Shown here: piece by piece, positions 842 through 8,517 of the stretch
Position numbering within the stretch: position 1 is the stretch's first letter
Layout of the letters: each line of letters begins with the position of its first letter
Source of the DNA: Pseudomonas sp. B6002
GTDB lineage: Bacteria; Pseudomonadota; Gammaproteobacteria; Pseudomonadales; Pseudomonadaceae
DNA length: 64,000 bases
NCBI RefSeq assembly: GCF_013385985.1
Contig: NZ_JACAOY010000010.1
Span: 297,151-361,150 of the forward strand
Reading direction: 5' to 3'
The notes under the pieces: model-generated
Seen by the model: only the letters and a program-made list of their open reading frames with translations
The model's database searches: none
What the model was told of the DNA's origin: nothing
Program-made: the position numbers and the translations under genes

Positions 842-3106
842 TTATTTGCGCAACAGGCGCAGGCCATTGAACACCACCAGCAGGCTGACGCCCATGTCGG
901 CGAACACCGCCATCCACATGGTCGCCATGCCTAGGAAGGTGACGGCCAAGAAGATCGCCTTGATCACCAGCGCCAGGGCAATGTTTTGCTTGAGGATACT
1001 CGACGTTTGCCGCGAGAGCCGAATGAAAGCCGGAATCTTGCGCAAATCATCGTCCATCAACGCCACGTCGGCGGTTTCGATGGCCGTGTCGGTGCCGGCT
1101 GCGGCCATGGCGAAGCCAATCTCGGCGCGGGCCAAGGCCGGGGCGTCGTTGATGCCGTCGCCGACCATGCCCACGCGGTGGCCTTGGCCGTAGAGGGTTT
1201 CGATAGCGTGCAGTTTGTCGGTGGGCAACAGGTCGCCCTGGGCCTGATCGATGCCGACCTGGGCGCCAATTGCCTGGGCAGTGTGGGTATTGTCGCCGGT
1301 GAGCATCAGGGTCTTGATGCCCAACGCATGCAGCTGCTGGATGGCTTCTCGGCTACTGTCTTTCACGGTGTCAGCCACGGCAAACAGCGCCAGCGGGCCG
1401 GACTTGTCGAGCAGCAACACCACGGACTTGCCTTGTTTCTCCAGAGCGAAGAGTTTTTCTTCCAGCGCCGGCGAGCACAGGCCGAGGTCTTCCACCAGGC
1501 GGTGGTTGCCCAGGTGATAGGTCTGGCCATTGATATCGCCGCGCACACCCCGCCCGGCCAGGGCTTCGAAGTTATCCACAACGTGCGTCGGCAGGTTTTT
1601 ATCCACAGCCGCGTTGGCGATGGCCAGGGACACCGGATGGTCGGAACGCCCGGCCAAACTGGCGGCCAGGGCCGGCGCGCTGTCCTCGACGTTGGGGAAC
1701 AGTGGCAAGTAGTCGGTTTGCACCGGCTTGCCGTGGGTGATGGTGCCGGTCTTGTCGAGGGCCAGGTAGTCGAGCTTGTAACCGCCCTCCAGGTACACGC
1801 CGCCCTTGATCAAGATGCCTTTGCGCGCCGCTGCCGCCAGGCCGCTGACGATGGTCACCGGGGTGGAAATCACCAGTGCACAAGGGCACGCGACCACCAG
1901 CAGCACGAGGGCGCGGTAGATCCAGTCAAACCAGGCGCCAGCCATGAACAGCGGCGGGATCACTGCCACGCCCAGGGCAAACAGGAACACGGCCGGGGTG
2001 TAGACCTTGGAGAAGCTGTCGACAAAGCGCTGGGTCGGCGCCCGTGCGCCTTGGGCCTGCTCCACGGCGTGGATGATACGCGCCAGGGTGGAGTTGTTGG
2101 CCGCAGCCGTCACCTTGTATTCCAGGGAGCCGGCCTGGTTGATGGTGCCGGCGAAGACTTTATCGCCCACGGTCTTTTCAATCGGCAGGCTTTCACCGGT
2201 GATCGGCGCCTGGTCGATGGTGGACTGGCCGGCGGTGACTTCACCGTCCAGGCCGATGCGTTCGCCGGGTTTTACCCTCACGATTGCGCCAATCTCAATA
2301 CTTTTGACCTCCTGTTCAGCCCACGAACCGTCCGCCTGGCGAACCGTGGCCTGTTCGGGCGTCATCTGCATCAAGCCGCTGATGGCGTTGCGTGCACGGT
2401 CCAGGGACTTGGCTTCGATCAGCTCGGCCACGGTAAACAGGAACATCACCATGGCGGCTTCCGGCCACTGGCCAATCAGCACGGCGCCGGTGACGGCAAT
2501 GCTCATCAAGGCATTGATGTTCAGGTTGAGGTTTTTCAGGGCGATCCAGCCCTTTTTGTAGGTGGTAAGGCCGCCGCTGAGGATCGACACCAGCGCCACC
2601 ACAGCAATCACCCATGTCGGTGCGGCACTGGTGAAGTGAAGCACTTCGGCGCCCAACGCGCCGACGCCAGACACCGCCAACGGCCACCAGTGTTTCTTGG
2701 CAGGCGGCTCGGCGGCGGGAGTGCCTTCTTCGATGGGGTCGGCTTGCATGCCGAGGGATTTGATCGCGTCGATGATCGGCGCAGTATTCGGCAGGTCATG
2801 GGTGACGCCGAGAATGCGGTTGATCAGGTTGAATTCCAGCTGCTGCACGCCGGCGAGCTTGCCCAGTTTGTTCTGGATCAGCGTTTGTTCGGTGGGGCAG
2901 TCCATGGCTTCGATGCGGAAGGTGCTCAGGCGCGAGCCGGCGGTGGGGGCTTCGCTCAGTTGCACCACCGCAGGGGCTGGCGTACCGGAACAGCAGGAAC
3001 CGCCGTGGCCGTGGTTGTGCACAGGCGTGAGTTTCTTCGGGGCATGATCGTGATCATGGTCATGACCGTGGTCGTGCTTGTGTGGGGTGTGCAGGGAATC
3101 GCTCAT
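842..3106 (-). CDS. cadA: Cd/Zn/Pb-translocating P1B-type ATPase CadA
   Basis: Inner-membrane heavy-metal efflux ATPase that exports Cd(II), Zn(II) or Pb(II) from the cytoplasm. With the start at 3106 the protein has 754 residues. It opens with a His-rich tail (KHDHGHDHDHDH) and a His/Cys patch near GGSCCSG. An HMA-like domain follows, in which the usual CxxC is MDCPTE (residues 68-73). Then come the TGES actuator motif, the membrane CPC (C407-P-C409), the phosphorylation motif D451-K-T-G-T, an HP motif (SDHP) and the hinge GDGINDAP (649-656). Longer in-frame starts exist upstream but would run into the promoter. It is divergent from cadR, and the MerR-type operator between them should make it metal-inducible. 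ZntA is an equivalent name in other species. Confidence 0.95.
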   Translation of the reverse strand: MSDSLHTPHKHDHGHDHDHDHAPKKLTPVHNHGHGGSCCSGTPAPAVVQLSEAPTAGSRLSTFRIEAMDCPTEQTLIQNKLGKLAGVQQLEFNLINRILGVTHDLPNTAPIIDAIKSLGMQADPIEEGTPAAEPPAKKHWWPLAVSGVGALGAEVLHFTSAAPTWVIAVVALVSILSGGLTTYKKGWIALKNLNLNINALMSIAVTGAVLIGQWPEAAMVMFLFTVAELIEAKSLDRARNAISGLMQMTPEQATVRQADGSWAEQEVKSIEIGAIVRVKPGERIGLDGEVTAGQSTIDQAPITGESLPIEKTVGDKVFAGTINQAGSLEYKVTAAANNSTLARIIHAVEQAQGARAPTQRFVDSFSKVYTPAVFLFALGVAVIPPLFMAGAWFDWIYRALVLLVVACPCALVISTPVTIVSGLAAAARKGILIKGGVYLEGGYKLDYLALDKTGTITHGKPVQTDYLPLFPNVEDSAPALAASLAGRSDHPVSLAIANAAVDKNLPTHVVDNFEALAGRGVRGDINGQTYHLGNHRLVEDLGLCSPALEEKLFALEKQGKSVVLLLDKSGPLALFAVADTVKDSSREAIQQLHALGIKTLMLTGDNTHTAQAIGAQVGIDQAQGDLLPTDKLHAIETLYGQGHRVGMVGDGINDAPALARAEIGFAMAAAGTDTAIETADVALMDDDLRKIPAFIRLSRQTSSILKQNIALALVIKAIFLAVTFLGMATMWMAVFADMGVSLLVVFNGLRLLRK

Positions 3107-3137
3107 TCTGTCGCGTCCGTAAAGGTGCCTGTTGCCA

Positions 3138-3168
3138 AGTAAAGACCCTGTAGCCACTATAGGGTCAA
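3138..3168 (-). promoter_or_regulatory. MerR/CadR-type cadA promoter with 21-bp operator
   Basis: On the minus strand, TTGACC (3168-3163) and TTTACT (3143-3138) form -35 and -10 boxes with a 19-bp spacer. That overlong spacer is the hallmark of MerR-family promoters that are untwisted by the metal-bound regulator. The near-perfect dyad at 3145-3165 (ACCCTRTAG arms) fills the spacer and is the CadR operator. It lies between the cadA and cadR start codons. Confidence 0.9.
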
Positions 3169-3191
3169 GCACCCATTTGGAGATTGCTGCG

Positions 3192-3632
3192 ATGAAGATC
3201 GGCGAACTGGCCAAACTGACCGACTGTCAGGTGGAAACCATCCGGTATTACGAGAAAGAAGGCCTGCTGCCACCCCCGGCCCGCACGGACGCCAACTACC
3301 GCGTGTACACCCAGGCACACACCGAGCGGCTGATCTTTATCCGCAATTGCCGCAGCCTCGACATGACCCTGGAAGAAATCCGCAGCCTGCTGGGCCTGCG
3401 CGACAGCCCCCAGGACCAGTGCGAAAGCGTGAATGCGTTGATCGACGAACATATCCACCACGTGAAAGCGCGGATTGACGGGCTGTTGGCGTTGCAGGAG
3501 CAGTTGCTGGACCTGCGCCAGCGCTGCGGCGGTGGGGAGCAGTGCGGGATTTTGCAGCGGCTGGAAGTCAGCGGAAGCGTGCAGGCCAGTGAGGCTGAGC
3601 CTTCACATGTGGGCAGAAGCCACGGGCATTGA
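3192..3632 (+). CDS. cadR: MerR-family Cd(II)-responsive regulator CadR
   Basis: Metal-sensing MerR-family activator of cadA, 146 residues. The start at 3192 gives the canonical MKIGELAKLT helix-turn-helix; the frame is open further upstream but that would cross the operator. The three metal-ligand cysteines of CadR are present as C77, C112 and C118 (P. putida CadR has C77, C112, C119), and the protein ends in the His-rich SHVGRSHGH tail. Oddity: the last third of the gene is duplicated across the Hachiman island. The codons from C112 to four codons before the stop are base-for-base identical to the remnant at 7379-7476, so the present 3' tip of this gene was probably supplied by the island. 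The reading frame is intact and the protein should work. Confidence 0.95.
   Translation: MKIGELAKLTDCQVETIRYYEKEGLLPPPARTDANYRVYTQAHTERLIFIRNCRSLDMTLEEIRSLLGLRDSPQDQCESVNALIDEHIHHVKARIDGLLALQEQLLDLRQRCGGGEQCGILQRLEVSGSVQASEAEPSHVGRSHGH
3525..3622 (+). repeat. 98-bp perfect direct repeat, left copy (candidate att site)
   Basis: These 98 bases inside the cadR 3' end are identical to 7379-7476. The two copies are 3854 bp apart and bracket the hamAB genes. Sequence on both sides of the core still encodes the same cadR residues but with different synonymous codons, so identity is limited to the core. This is the layout of an integrated element flanked by attL and attR. Confidence 0.85.
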
Positions 3633-3932
3633 GCCCAAGAGCCAAATTTAAAAGCATCAATCTTATTCATACGGCGCCCGAAAAACTGATGCAAGTCATA
3701 CTTTAAACTGCATTCAAAGTACTCACTTAGCCCCCTCCTTTTATGATTACTGTTTTTATATACAGTGCCGATTTTATTTAAGGTCACCGGCCTCTGTTTA
3801 GGAAAAATCTAATATTTCGTAGAAAGCTGCAGCTGATGGTTGCAATTTGCCATCAAAGAGTGGTTAATTTGCCATCAGTGAATTCATATATGTATATCTA
3901 GACAACAGCAATTGTTATTCATGGAATAGAAT
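3633..3932 (+). promoter_or_regulatory. hamA upstream region with repeated AATTTGCCATCA boxes
   Basis: No gene is supported in these 300 AT-rich bases. The 12-mer AATTTGCCATCA occurs at 3844-3855 and 3866-3877, with starts 22 bp apart, about two helical turns. A reverse-oriented TGATGG at 3834-3839 pairs with the first box. One candidate promoter uses TTGCCA (3869-3874) with TATATC (3893-3898, 18-bp spacer); another uses TTGCAA (3840-3845) with an extended TGgTTAATT (3861-3869). In either case the boxes overlap promoter elements, which is how an operator would be placed. The assignment is inference only. Confidence 0.45.
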
Positions 3933-4814
3933 ATGGACGCCGCATTAAAAACAAGAGTTGCTAATCAAATATTCAAGTTTGAAACAAACTTCACAACAAA
4001 AAAAACAGATGACTCCTCCTTTACTTTAGACTACGAAGGTGGCAGATATCGCCAATCAGAATTAGTCGGATTAATCAGAGATACTGTTCCATTTTTTGCG
4101 CTGACCTCAAAAGAAATTTCTTCAATAGATAGATCTGACTGGAACAAACAAAGCTTCACGCGAATTTCAGACGCGAATATTAACTCAAAAGGAGATTATG
4201 GAGAGTTATTATTATATTTAGTTCTTTCCGTATTTTATGATGTTCCAAAATTTGTAACAAAGGCTAGACTCAGATCAACCACGAGAGAACAAATAAAGGG
4301 TTTCGACTGTGCCCATTTTTCTGTGGAAAATTCGAAAGTAACACTTTGGCTTGGGGAAGCCAAGTTTCACAAAAGTGTTTCGGGGGCCGTGAACTCCGCT
4401 CTAAAATCCTTAAACGAACATCTAAATGATGCCGAAAAAATCAAATCAGAATTAAAGCTTTTAGGCGGTGAAATAGAGATCAATAAAAAACTTGAGCCAG
4501 AAAAATATGATCTCTTAAAACAATATGTCGCAGGAGGGAAATCACTAGACAAGGTCAATATCGCGGTACCAGTCTTGATAACCTATGATAGTTCCTGCAT
4601 TAAAAAGCATTGTAATACTGGGATCGGCGACATTGAAGACGATACTCTTAGAAATGAACTTGAGTCGGAACTAGAATCACATTTCAAAAAAATCTATAAA
4701 AAATCCTGGCCAGCGCATAAAAATATAAAAATAGTTTTCTTTGCAATCCCACTAGAGTCAGTATCCAATCTAAAAAGCATGATCGGGCAAGTAGAAGCCG
4801 CGATGAAGTTTTAA
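3933..4814 (+). CDS. hamA: Hachiman antiphage protein HamA (DUF1837, PD-(D/E)xK-like nuclease)
   Basis: Effector subunit of the Hachiman defence system, 293 residues. The DUF1837 pattern shows as KGDYGELLLYL (86-96), GFDCAHF with D125, and LGEAKFH with E142 and K144. D125...E142-x-K144 reads as a PD-(D/E)xK nuclease core. In characterised systems HamA is a DNase held in check by the helicase HamB and released when damaged or phage DNA is sensed. The start at 3933 has only a weak Shine-Dalgarno (GGAA about 9 nt upstream), but there is no better in-frame start nearby. hamB follows 12 bp after the stop, so the two form one operon. Base composition and codon use (many AAA, ATA, TTA) differ sharply from neighbouring genes, which points to horizontal transfer. 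Confidence 0.88.
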   Translation: MDAALKTRVANQIFKFETNFTTKKTDDSSFTLDYEGGRYRQSELVGLIRDTVPFFALTSKEISSIDRSDWNKQSFTRISDANINSKGDYGELLLYLVLSVFYDVPKFVTKARLRSTTREQIKGFDCAHFSVENSKVTLWLGEAKFHKSVSGAVNSALKSLNEHLNDAEKIKSELKLLGGEIEINKKLEPEKYDLLKQYVAGGKSLDKVNIAVPVLITYDSSCIKKHCNTGIGDIEDDTLRNELESELESHFKKIYKKSWPAHKNIKIVFFAIPLESVSNLKSMIGQVEAAMKF

Positions 4815-4826
4815 AGGAGCACTATT

Positions 4827-7052
4827 ATGATTTCATCAATCAAGTCAATGCTTGCTGACATCAAGTCTAAGGAAGACATTAGTACAAGCACCATCGAGCA
4901 AATGCTCATCAACACTTATCGCCTACTCGATTCTGAAGATGAAGAAAATTACAATCTTTGCCTTTCAAGTATATGCCATGTGGCAAACATTAATCATAGT
5001 GACCTTATGGTCCAGCAGTTACTTCACGACTGCATTATCAAATCAAGAATTTTTCTCTATGATGGGCTTCTTCAATCAATAAGACCCGAATATGCTCCTT
5101 ACATCTCCGCCCAAGACAGCATATTGCAAAATTTTTACACTAGTCGCAAAACCAACACCACCTTGACAAAACCTCAAAAAGAAGTTTTTGACTTATTTCA
5201 AAAACATCGTCGACTAATAGTAAGCGCTCCCACATCCTTCGGCAAAACGCGAATAATTCGAGAAATAATATCGTCAAATGACTACAAAAAAATCGCGCTA
5301 ATAATGCCTACTGTGTCCCTGCTATCAGAGCAATATCAAGACATTAAAAAAAGCATCCCCGGGTATACAATAGTCAAATCCTCTAAAGTTAAAATTGATG
5401 AAGATGAAAACTATATACTGGTGCTTACGCCTGAACGAATGAGTGCGTTTATGGATGAAAATCCAAAATTCCAAATTGACTTTTTTGTCATGGATGAAAT
5501 TTACAAAACTGACTACAAGCTAGATGATGACCGATACAAAGTATTTTCAGACATTCTCTATCGCCTCGCCAAACAAAACACGCACTTTTATCTAATTGGT
5601 CCTTATATATCAGATTTCAGTGAAAAATTTCGAGAAAAGTTTAATGCAAAATTTAAGCGATTTGAGTTGGAAATCGTACAAAAAGACTATTACAAGTTAG
5701 ATAAAATAAAAAACAAAGGTACTCATTTCATTGAAAATAGCCCTTTGAAAATTATTGGCAACCCATATAAAAATCTGTACAGAATAATTTCTCAGAAAAA
5801 TATCGACGGAAAGTTTTTAATATACCGCTATCAAAAACAATATGTTGAAGATACAGCAAAAAAACTTGCCAACACTTGGCAAGTCAAACCTCACAATGAG
5901 GAATTGGTCGATTATTTATCTCAGTCTGTCTCAGCTGATTGGGACCTCATAGACTGTATAAGAAAGGGCGTAGCGTTCCATCATGGAGCAATGCCCAGAC
6001 ATATTCAGGATTTAATCGTAGATGAGTTCAACGACAATTCCCCAACAGGAATAAACTATTTATTTTGCACAACCTCCTTAACCGAAGGCATAAATTCAGC
6101 GGCAAAAAATGTTGTTATATATGATAAAAAGATAGGAAAGGGAGATACATTAGGCACACTAGACAGGAAAAACATAGAAGGTAGAGCCGGAAGATTTATG
6201 CAACACTTTATTGGGCGAGTTTTTTACCTTGAAACTGACGATAAAAAAGATAAAGAATCTATAGTTGAAATTGAATATTTAGATAAACCAAGACCTGCCA
6301 TCGAATCACTTCTGCAGTTAGATAAAAATGATATCCCAGAAGACCGAAACAATCTTCATAACGACTTTCTAAGCAAAATCGGCAAGCTAGAAATCCCTGA
6401 GTCTTTAATCAAGGCAAACAGATTTGTATCTGTAGATGGTCAAATTGCGCTAATTCAACACTTGCGTCATTTTAGTGCTGAATATTTCTTCGAAGATCAT
6501 TATCCAGACAAACCAATTCAAACAAAAATTCTTTCATCAATTTATGACTTTTTATTCACGGAAAACGACAAAGGTCGTAACTTTGACAATGAAGCTGGCA
6601 AGTCAATCCTTATCCAACTCACAAACTATTATGCTTTTTTAAAGCCTTCATTCAAACAACTCTTAGAGTCGGACACTATAATCAGGCAACGGAAAGAACA
6701 AAGCTCACGAATTCGTTACGTTTTCGACTTGACCACAAAATACTTTGAATTCGTATGGCCTAAGTATATTAAGGCATTTGAAAATATTTACAATTTTGTT
6801 GCCGTTGAGAAATCAGCAGATATTATCCGACTAGACATGTTAATAGCACAGCTTGAATACGGAACCACCAAACCTCATGAGATTATTCTTAGAGATTCTG
6901 GCCTTCCGAATGAAATTATTGGAAAAATCTCGAAGTTCTTCAAAGATTGCAAAACATTTGAAGATATACAGAAAATCACCTCATCACACAGAATAGAAAT
7001 AAATAGAAAAATTCACTCAATAGAATCAAAAGTTCTTGATAAGTACATTTGA
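4827..7052 (+). CDS. hamB: Hachiman antiphage helicase HamB (SF2, DEAD/DEAH-like)
   Basis: Superfamily 2 helicase/translocase of the Hachiman system, 741 residues. Visible motifs are Walker A SAPTSFGKTR (133-142), the Walker B-like box MDEIY (222-226) in place of a strict DEAD/DEAH, and motif VI GRAGRF (452-457). Motif Ia-like sequence (IMPTVSLLSEQ) lies between the first two. The N-terminal ~115 residues and the C-terminal ~250 residues are helical and have no recognised domain; they are probably the HamA-binding and DNA-sensing parts. AAAGGAG sits 7-8 nt before the ATG. It is co-transcribed with hamA and ends before a good intrinsic terminator. AT-rich like hamA. The pairing with DUF1837 makes Hachiman the best call over a generic helicase. 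Confidence 0.88.
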   Translation: MISSIKSMLADIKSKEDISTSTIEQMLINTYRLLDSEDEENYNLCLSSICHVANINHSDLMVQQLLHDCIIKSRIFLYDGLLQSIRPEYAPYISAQDSILQNFYTSRKTNTTLTKPQKEVFDLFQKHRRLIVSAPTSFGKTRIIREIISSNDYKKIALIMPTVSLLSEQYQDIKKSIPGYTIVKSSKVKIDEDENYILVLTPERMSAFMDENPKFQIDFFVMDEIYKTDYKLDDDRYKVFSDILYRLAKQNTHFYLIGPYISDFSEKFREKFNAKFKRFELEIVQKDYYKLDKIKNKGTHFIENSPLKIIGNPYKNLYRIISQKNIDGKFLIYRYQKQYVEDTAKKLANTWQVKPHNEELVDYLSQSVSADWDLIDCIRKGVAFHHGAMPRHIQDLIVDEFNDNSPTGINYLFCTTSLTEGINSAAKNVVIYDKKIGKGDTLGTLDRKNIEGRAGRFMQHFIGRVFYLETDDKKDKESIVEIEYLDKPRPAIESLLQLDKNDIPEDRNNLHNDFLSKIGKLEIPESLIKANRFVSVDGQIALIQHLRHFSAEYFFEDHYPDKPIQTKILSSIYDFLFTENDKGRNFDNEAGKSILIQLTNYYAFLKPSFKQLLESDTIIRQRKEQSSRIRYVFDLTTKYFEFVWPKYIKAFENIYNFVAVEKSADIIRLDMLIAQLEYGTTKPHEIILRDSGLPNEIIGKISKFFKDCKTFEDIQKITSSHRIEINRKIHSIESKVLDKYI

Positions 7053-7084
7053 AGTAAAGTTTCGAACTGCATCTCCACCTAGAG

Positions 7085-7110
7085 AGAGAGGTCAGTTCGG
7101 CCTCTCTTTT
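7085..7110 (+). terminator. Intrinsic terminator of hamAB
   Basis: AGAGAGG (7085-7091) pairs perfectly with CCTCTCT (7101-7107) around a 9-nt loop and is followed by a T-run. It lies 33 bp after the hamB stop. Confidence 0.75.
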
Positions 7111-7297
7111 CTATTGTATGTCACACTGCCATTGACGCTGTCAGCGGCGCACGGCGCTCATATCCTGCTAGCGAGAAATCGCTAGGTTCGGTCAACTTTA
7201 ACCACTTTGACTGATATATCCCTGTCTTCGCAAACTCCGGCACACGGTCACTGATGACGAGCTTCGGCACAGCAAGCTGCTCGCGCTTGAACTGTTC
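7111..7297. other. Right end of the Hachiman island, no recognised gene
   Basis: GC content rises again here. On the minus strand an open frame runs from the cadR junction to a TGA at 7121-7123 (residues such as KLVISDRVPEFAKTG). It has no start codon of its own within the island: its only start lies inside the duplicated cadR tail. It could be a 5'-truncated remnant of an older gene. I do not recognise the family, and chance cannot be excluded. A short inverted repeat TAGCGAgaaaTCGCTA occurs within it. Confidence 0.35.
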
Positions 7298-7486
7298 ATT
7301 GACCACATCCACCACGTCAAGGCGCGGATCGATGGGCTGTTGGCGTTACAGGAACAACTGCTGGACCTGCGCCAGCGGTGCGGCGGTGGGGAGCAGTGCG
7401 GGATTTTGCAGCGGCTGGAAGTCAGCGGAAGCGTGCAGGCCAGTGAGGCTGAGCCTTCACATGTGGGCAGAAGCCATGGCCATTAG
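7298..7486 (+). pseudogene. cadR: Promoterless cadR 3'-end remnant (second copy)
   Basis: The frame reads IDHIHHVKARIDGLLALQ and continues to the same SHVGRSHGH end as intact CadR, with a TAG stop at 7484-7486. It covers the last third of the gene, including the C112 and C118 equivalents, but lacks the HTH and any start. Compared with 3441-3632, one codon (GAA) is missing near the 5' end. Ten single-base differences fall within the 25 codons at 7304-7378, all synonymous; then follow 98 identical bases and again synonymous changes in the last three coding codons (cac/cat, ggg/ggc) plus tga/tag. The silent pattern means this tail evolved as part of a functional cadR. It marks the right junction of the island. 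Confidence 0.85.
7379..7476 (+). repeat. 98-bp perfect direct repeat, right copy (candidate att site)
   Basis: Identical to 3525-3622 inside intact cadR. Followed by TTGGGTgaaaACCCAA (7489-7504), a hairpin that is absent behind the left copy and was probably the original hairpin downstream of cadR. Confidence 0.85.
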
Positions 7487-7510
7487 CCTTGGGTGAAAAC
7501 CCAATCAAAC

Positions 7511-7614
7511 TGTGGGAGCTGGCTTGCCTGCGATAGCGGTACATCAGACACCTATCAGGTGCTGACACTCCGCGATCGCAGCGGTGCGACGACTCGACAA
7601 GCCAGCTCCCACAG
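7511..7614. repeat. REP doublet (REPIN), subtype A, right arm degenerate
   Basis: Left REP has core GGGAGCTGGCTTGCCTGCGA; the inverted right arm keeps aagccagctcccaca but has lost the tcgcaggc part. Lies between the cadR remnant and the 3' end of thyA. Confidence 0.8.
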
Positions 7615-7632
7615 TTTTGATCGAGGCGGGCT

Positions 7633-8466
7633 TCAGATCGCGACGTCGGCCTTGATGCTCGGGTCGGCGTCATAACCCACAATCTCGAAATCTTCGAACT
7701 TGTAATCGTAGATCGACGCAGGCTTACGCTTGATCACCAGCTCCGGCAGCTTCTTCGGCGTACGCGCCAGTTGGGTGCGGATCTGTTCCATGTGGTTGCT
7801 GTAGGCGTGGGTGTCGCCGGTGGTGACGATGATCTCGTGGGGGATCAGGTCGCACTGCTGGGCCAGCATGTGGGTAAGCAATGCCAGGGCGGCGGTGTTG
7901 TATGGCAGGCCGAGGAAGACGTCGGAGCTGCGGATATACAACTGCATCGACAGGTGGCCGTCGTGCACAAACGCCTGGTACAGCAGGTGGCACGGCGGCA
8001 GGGCTTGCTTGCCGTCGAGTGCGTTTTGCTGCGGGCTCTTGGTTTCGTCGGGCAGGTATTCGACGTTCCAGCCGTGGAACAGGATGCGTCGGCTGTTGGG
8101 GTTGTTCTTCAACGTATCGACCATGTAGTCGATCTGGTTGATCGTGCCGCCGTCCTTGGTCGGCCAGGCGGTCCACTGCTCGCCGTACACCGGGCCGAGG
8201 TCGCCGTCTTCGGTGGCCCATTCGTCCCAGATACGCACGCCGTTTTCGTTGAGCCACTTGATGTTGGTGTTGCCACTCAACATCCAGATCAATTCGTTGG
8301 CGATGCTTTTGAAGTGAAGCTTCTTGGTGGTCAGCAGCGGGAAGCCGTCGGCCAAGTTATGCCGATACTGACGGGCAAACACGGCCTTGGTGCCGGTGCC
8401 AGTGCGATCGCCCTTGGTCAATCCATTGGTCACGACGTCGTTCAGTAGTTCGAGATATTGCTTCAT
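7633..8466 (-). CDS. thyA: Thymidylate synthase ThyA
   Basis: Converts dUMP to dTMP with methylene-tetrahydrofolate, in the cytoplasm. It has 277 residues from the ATG at 8466 ([10 protein letters not shown]); an upstream in-frame start would overlap the lgt intergenic region and is not conserved-looking. The active-site cysteine is C159 in LPPCHLLYQ, and the substrate-binding segment [12 protein letters not shown] is present, as is [12 protein letters not shown] near the C-terminus. It lies 51 bp downstream of lgt on the same strand, the usual lgt-thyA operon of gammaproteobacteria. Confidence 0.98.
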
Positions 8467-8517
8467 GTGTGTACCTGTATCAAAGAAGCCGGGGCTCGCA
8501 AGCCCCGGCATTCGAAT

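Follow-up and report, generated by a model that had tools for sequence, protein, structure and literature searches.

By which route does a defence system come to lie between two neighbouring genes, and does its arrival leave a mark from which the route can be read? The question is raised by a 64,000-nt stretch of Pseudomonas sp. B6002 DNA (the window; all coordinates below are positions in it), taken from contig NZ_JACAOY010000010.1 of an assembly of 6.68 Mb in 51 contigs (GCF_013385985.1), where an island between cadR and thyA holds hamA and hamB, the two genes of a Hachiman antiphage system. The original prediction for this DNA, made from the letters alone, had named the family and had put forward two possible novelties, an unusual Walker B box in HamB and a position inside cadR; the family assignment stands, and the two novelties do not. 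The explanation that we favour, with high confidence, is that of a functional-looking, canonical Hachiman system which arrived through homologous exchange within the cadR 3' end. The family is known; what is new is the scar beside the system, with a modestly interesting acquisition history. The scar outweighs the system in interest, since the movement of defence systems without mobility genes is seldom visible.

The hamA-hamB pair and its relatives

Both genes are intact, complete open reading frames (ORFs), adjacent on the plus strand, as seen from the ORF list and its translations: hamA (3933..4814) encodes a predicted nuclease subunit of 293 aa, and hamB (4827..7052) a Ski2-type superfamily 2 (SF2) helicase subunit of 741 aa in a compact, AbpB-like form. 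The layout agrees with the original prediction in the extent of the pair (3933..7052), in the spacing of 12 bp between the hamA stop codon (4812-4814) and the hamB ATG (4827), and in the single terminator-like hairpin that follows hamB on the plus strand (7082..7110, from a hairpin scan). The ATG of hamB is preceded by AAAGGAG, which resembles a ribosome-binding site. Five terminator-like hairpins were found in 3600-7650 against 3.4 +/- 1.7 in shuffled sequence, so that their number is no evidence, but the placement of one directly after hamB fits a terminator. The island is indeed AT-rich, with a GC content of 32-39% in windows of 500 bp compared with about 58-65% beyond it. The ORFs of at least 60 aa that lie wholly within 3633-7118 are hamA, hamB and two more (63 and 76 aa) overlapping them; none is of a size for an integrase, and no integrase or transposase was recognized among them.

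The profile search that had been proposed as a check gave clear results for both proteins: with hmmscan against PADLOC, HamA matches the HamA model at 1.9e-110 and HamB the HamB model at 1.5e-285 over residues 6-741. HamA also matches Pfam PF08878 (HamA, DUF1837) at 9.2e-41, with 140.6 bits where the cut-off is 25, and no model in NCBIfam; a profile built from it finds the HamA domain of AbpA in the PDB (8zue_A, residues 302-561, 4.3e-17). The predicted nuclease core is present as D125...G141-E142-A-K144, and D125, G141, E142 and K144, which make up the D-GEXK motif, are invariant in all 10 aligned HamAs; these are partners detectable by single-sequence search, a choice by which the set leans towards intact HamAs.

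HamB matches DEAD, ResIII and Helicase_C in Pfam, and in NCBIfam chiefly Hel308-type models, far under their cut-offs. Its best PDB match is AbpB (8zue_B), at 2.4e-42 from the single sequence, which also finds Hel308-type helicases, and at 1e-199 from a profile of 11 sequences. The SF2 motifs listed in the original prediction were located as SAPTSFGKTR (133), VMDEIYK (221) and GRAGRF (452). K140 and D223/E224 do not vary among the 11 aligned sequences and, matched by motif rather than by residue alignment, probably correspond to Lys128, Asp208 and Glu209 of AbpB, which are required for defence (PMC10732053). The DEIY box, offered as a novelty, had to be given up as one: 27 of 30 HamB homologues have DE[F/I/V]Y in this place (25 DEFY, one DEVY, one DEIY) and three have DEAH, so DEIY is one letter off the commonest form and ordinary. 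Nor is the compactness of this copy noteworthy, as 694-740 aa is the usual length (27 of the 30; the other three have 820-848 aa).

Profile matches to both proteins, together with the conserved catalytic residues, strongly support the reading of the locus, from its sequence, as a complete two-gene Hachiman system that is ordinary for the family. That it should instead be a decayed or inactive remnant of such a system is very improbable; we found no point in favour of this, and both reading frames are full length, with the catalytic residues of HamA and HamB kept. Because those residues are conserved, we infer for this copy the nuclease-helicase mechanism of its homologues and, by analogy, presume expression and a role in defence. 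Characterised HamAB is a helicase-nuclease heterodimer in which HamB holds HamA back while the DNA is intact, and free ends or damage activate it to degrade phage and host DNA (PMC12278908); the nuclease depends on the D-E(X)K or D-GEXK motif of HamA and on the helicase (PMC12278908, PMC12799240). The related AbpAB is triggered by phage Gp32 on single-stranded DNA, by replication inhibitors and by loss of RecB or RecC (PMC10732053). On these models HamB of the window, as a Ski2-like DNA helicase, would restrain the nuclease HamA so long as DNA remains intact, and would load onto DNA with a free end or with single-stranded damage, such as occurs in phage replication; ATP hydrolysis would then render HamA active, and degradation of phage and host DNA would follow as abortive infection.

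The pair can be compared with two characterised systems. With canonical HamAB of ECOR31 (8vx9 and others; PMC12278908) it shares the hamA-hamB arrangement, the DUF1837 nuclease with D-E(X)K and the Ski2-type HamB, but the ECOR31 HamB chain has 1174 aa and a DEGH box, against 741 aa and DEIY here; no chain of HamA in the ECOR31 structure was matched by the window HamA in the PDB, with single sequence or profile. AbpAB of Escherichia coli K-12 (8zue; PMC10732053) has a helicase of 729 aa with a DEFY box, the best PDB match of HamB. Its AbpA (a chain of 565 aa), however, carries a Cap4-like nuclease in front and has lost the HamA active site (PMC12278908), whereas the window HamA stands alone with 293 aa and keeps the motif, which sets the pair apart from the AbpAB variant.

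This combination was compared with 29 other Pseudomonas HamB loci, from 27 other genomes of which two have two loci each, by a profile search of their partner genes. A HamA-like partner is present at 28 of the 29 (none was found at L060 by this search); ten of these partners retain the active-site motif and 18 have lost it. Compact HamBs (694-740 aa) account for 26 of the 29 loci; their partners keep the motif in 8 cases and lack it in 18. The motif is likewise absent from K-12 AbpA and retained in the HamA of Luteirhabdus. The window holds a divergent member of Hachiman, its nearest homologues found being about 40% identical, in which an AbpB-like helicase goes with an intact HamA, in contrast to the 18 of 26 compact loci in other genomes of the genus where the partner has no active-site motif.

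The closest relatives found are the pairs of Luteirhabdus pelagi (L112; HamB 41-42%, HamA 41%) and of one Pseudomonas genome (G153, locus L032; HamB 35-37%, HamA 36%). In both the genes are adjacent and the catalytic motif is kept, but unlike in the window neither cadR nor thyA adjoins them within the flanks available. HamB relatives at 1e-30 occur in 28 of 399 genomes of the genus, our own included, the best of the others at 37% identity; at 1e-60 HamB was found in the source genome alone among 398 genomes across the phylum. A scan of contigs of the GTDB collection, which detects close relatives only, gave one relative, that of L. pelagi (41%). Among viral contigs, single-protein queries with HamA and HamB returned no relative, and alignment queries returned distant ones only (HamA at 5 loci, 21-25%; HamB at 18, 25-39% in the best segment). 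HamB relatives are present in four plasmid records (26-30%; E-value limit 1e-30) and in three phage records (27-31%; limit 1e-20).

Upstream of hamA, AATTTGCCATCA occurs twice, with starts at 3844 and 3866, 22 bp apart (window 3844-3877), and the pair is a possible candidate for an operator.

The scar to the right of hamB

On its left the island is bordered by cadR (3192..3632, plus strand), a putative MerR-family regulator of 146 aa that takes its name from the earlier sequence reading. The gene is complete, which corrects the placement of the island within it: the island lies between cadR and thyA. On its right, two gene ends that the original prediction had overlooked lie side by side before the resident thyA. 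The first is the 3' end of a thyA of type B (7119..7305, minus strand), about the last 62 codons of a thymidylate synthase of 323 aa; the second is a further cadR 3' end (7301..7486, plus strand) of 62 codons with its stop, 93% identical to cadR over 184 nt. The two overlap by about 5 bp. They are followed by a REP-like inverted repeat with perfect arms of 20 nt (7507..7617), and then by thyA of type A (7633..8511, minus strand; 292 aa); no other full thyA was found in the source genome. By eye, what follows the second cadR end is like the spacer of the relatives, REP-like repeat included, and what follows the first is not; a TGTGGGAG...GGCTTGC sequence similar to the repeat stands 3' of cadR in many of 29 relatives.

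The two gene ends have had different histories. The thyA-B remnant matches PF00303 at E=0.001, under the curated cut-off, and is 80% identical in nucleotides to the thyA-B end of one genome (G186) over 187 bp. Compared with 86 intact type-B ends it differs on average by 16.9 aa, where intact ends differ among themselves by a mean of 6.2, and by 10.2 (maximum 19) for pairs at 34-45 nt differences; five positions that never vary among those 86 are changed in it, and its GC content is 0.55 as opposed to a mean of 0.63 and a minimum of 0.58. Given this excess of amino acid differences, the five changed invariant positions and the low GC content, the remnant looks decayed. At 1e-6 it had no match in 273 other genomes across the class, and the stretch 7060-7300 matched nothing in plasmids. 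The two cadR ends, on the other hand, differ at 15 positions; 14 of the changes are synonymous and the stop is preserved, from which it follows that the second end stems from a working gene. The single non-synonymous difference is in the first, junction codon, where this end overlaps the remnant of thyA. The differences are unevenly placed, with 11 in the 78 positions of 3447-3524, none in the 98 bp of 3525-3622 and four in the last 10 bp. By hand arithmetic, 15 differences placed at random over 186 bp would leave so long a clean run somewhere only a few times in 10,000.

Possible routes into the 3' end of cadR

A scar made of the ends of two neighbouring genes suggests homologous recombination and not a dedicated integrase. 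Site-specific integration with the cadR end as attachment site was rejected: the island has no integrase-sized ORF, the 184-nt repeat is a pair of alleles that have diverged, and a remnant of thyA is enclosed. In the course of events that we propose, donor DNA composed of a cadR end, hamAB and an old thyA-B remnant would have come from another Pseudomonas, and a RecA-type exchange in the cadR 3' end would have added it behind cadR. The exchange would leave a second cadR end next to thyA; hamAB would have come with a thyA-B end already decayed, and two functional cadR alleles of different strains would have been joined.

Recombination of this kind could have involved either a circle, by a single crossover, or a linear fragment, by homology-facilitated illegitimate recombination (HFIR). 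A Campbell-type single crossover of a circle [cadR end - hamAB - thyA-B remnant], placed in 3525-3622, accounts for the order of difference, identity and difference along the two cadR ends, even though it is the middle that varies more among the 29 relatives (pairwise divergence on average 0.184 for 3525-3620 and 0.129 for 3447-3524). Over 3447-3524 the left copy is nearer to 22 of the 29 relatives and the right copy to one, with six ties, as a native left part would predict. However, no such circle is known, the last differing part is merely about 10 bp long, gene conversion yields the same pattern, and the two nearest relatives, L003 and L004, tie. We put the chance of the circle a little short of even.

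In HFIR of a linear fragment, the homologous exchange would lie on the left, in or upstream of cadR, a microhomology join would lie on the right, and the second cadR end would be wholly the recipient's own. The process is documented in transformable bacteria including Pseudomonas stutzeri, and most HFIR junctions have micro-homology of 3-10 bp (PMC3240628); the overlap of about 5 bp at the junction of thyA-B and cadR is of this kind. An exchange within the cadR end, however, predicts identity before it and difference after it; with the observed pattern of difference, identity and difference, HFIR would need an added gene conversion. Its frequency is also 100 to 10^6 times below that of homologous recombination, and a deletion generally accompanies it (PMC3240628); none is seen here. 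HFIR has been proposed for effector loci of Vibrio cholerae, where the scars of the type VI secretion system are alike in having leftovers of displaced genes beside the new cargo and one homologous anchor; there the cargo consists of effector and immunity genes, whereas in the window two flanking gene ends surround a defence system (PMC5361080). We regard HFIR here as possible, with the odds against it. The circle with one crossover explains the pattern most directly, and HFIR followed by gene conversion does so nearly as well.

Both cadR and thyA ends could also have been doubled in place, by a tandem duplication followed by insertion of hamAB and by later replacement of thyA-B with thyA-A beside the second cadR end. 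Self-comparison for repeated gene ends at 14 other loci with cadR-thyA gaps of at least 250 bp found a similar scar at one, in G137 (L177), where two tandem copies of a unit of 426 bp [thyA-B end / cadR end / spacer] precede a whole thyA-B; blastn gave one of its two cadR ends, and a pattern search gave both. This locus lends the duplication some credit, but in the window the histories of the two ends differ, the thyA-B end being decayed and the second cadR end having been part of a working cadR until recently, and we consider it unlikely.

Several points weigh against the explanation we favour, that of a canonical system brought in by exchange in the cadR end. The clean run of 98 bp could derive from later gene conversion between the copies, and over 3447-3524 neither copy is closer than the other to L003 or L004 (7/7 and 8/8 differences). 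No empty site from this species and no donor was found, so that either cadR end may be the native one. As to the system itself, the single HamA sequence gave no convincing chain in the PDB (best E-value 0.13), the match of HamB to ECOR31 HamB (8vx9_B) is weak (2.3e-06 over 103 residues), and all functional statements on this hamAB derive from homologues.

Given a sister strain, the allele differences at this one locus could decide between circle and linear fragment. More doubtful is whether the convergent cadR-thyA pair might act in Pseudomonas as an integrase-free landing site, at which RecA-dependent exchange within the conserved gene ends adds cargo, here a defence system, with a [thyA end / cadR end] scar left behind every time; we offer this tentatively. 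If true, the scars at landing sites would record donor, recipient and the order of events.

The cadR-thyA interval in the genus

The cadR 3' end has a match in 167 of 200 genomes of the genus, the source genome included, with one genome per species. Of the 166 others, 117 (29 + 8 + 80) were examined, and the remaining 49, with weaker matches, were left out. The gene behind cadR is thyA of type A in 28 and of type B in 87, with none in the fetched stretch in two, and the median gap is nearly the same for both types (133.5 bp and 132 bp). At 29 loci (L003-L031) the product of cadR is 87-97% identical in amino acids to that of the window, with the same placement. The gap is below 250 bp in 101 of the 117 genomes and measures 0.8-3.4 kb in 12, some of which hold recognizable cargo by Pfam: a PAP2 phosphatase, an MFS transporter, and a catalase with a cyclopropane-synthase-like protein. 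For wide-gap proteins of 278-305 aa (L126, L135, L139, L147) there was no match in Pfam (three searched, of 278-302 aa) or PADLOC (four searched).

No relative of hamA or hamB was found at 1e-5 in the 117 cadR-thyA stretches, and neither cadR nor thyA was seen beside 31 HamB/AbpB loci, for which little flank is available. The interval is an occasional cargo site, and the status of a defence hotspot goes beyond the present data. The two hotspots of P. aeruginosa have other flanks, merR/ihfA/pheT and DUF4011 for cDHS1, ssrA and VOC/LysR/RidA genes for cDHS2 (PMC10250203), where the window has cadR and thyA; its cadR is judged distinct from the hotspot merR by its other neighbours. The words cadR and thyA do not occur in the main text of that article, and a literature search of titles and the starts of abstracts, with supplements outside it, returned no description of cadR/thyA as an island site.

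Among the other features of the window, the minus-strand ORF beside cadR (842-3214) presumably encodes a heavy-metal P-type ATPase, and a Pseudomonas P1 small RNA is present. The thyA genes of types A and B at the cadR locus are about 34% identical, a pattern as after gene replacement.

In the two genomes G136 (type A) and G073 (type B), only the 3' part of thyA remains behind cadR, and a large element, of 42 kb in G136 and spread over two contigs in G073, interrupts the gene. The elements begin with three phage-integrase-family genes (one of the six matches lies just below the cut-off) and carry a whole thymidylate synthase of their own, 71% identical to that of the window; they are reminiscent of an island in tmk of P. 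putida KT2440 (PMC10653934). Their coordinates are L233 2183-2803 and 2896-10667 and L066 17294-17575 for G136, and L235 and L236 for G073; the ends of the G136 element hold CTGCACATTAC and GTAATGTGCAG, an inverted match by eye. Within the G136 element, L066 12208-15948 encodes a KAP-type P-loop NTPase of 1246 aa that is weakly PifA/QatA-like in PADLOC, and beside the split thyA of G073, L171 1241-2380 matches the PADLOC 'beta' model at 2.5e-22 and PD-Lambda-2_C at 3.6e-09.

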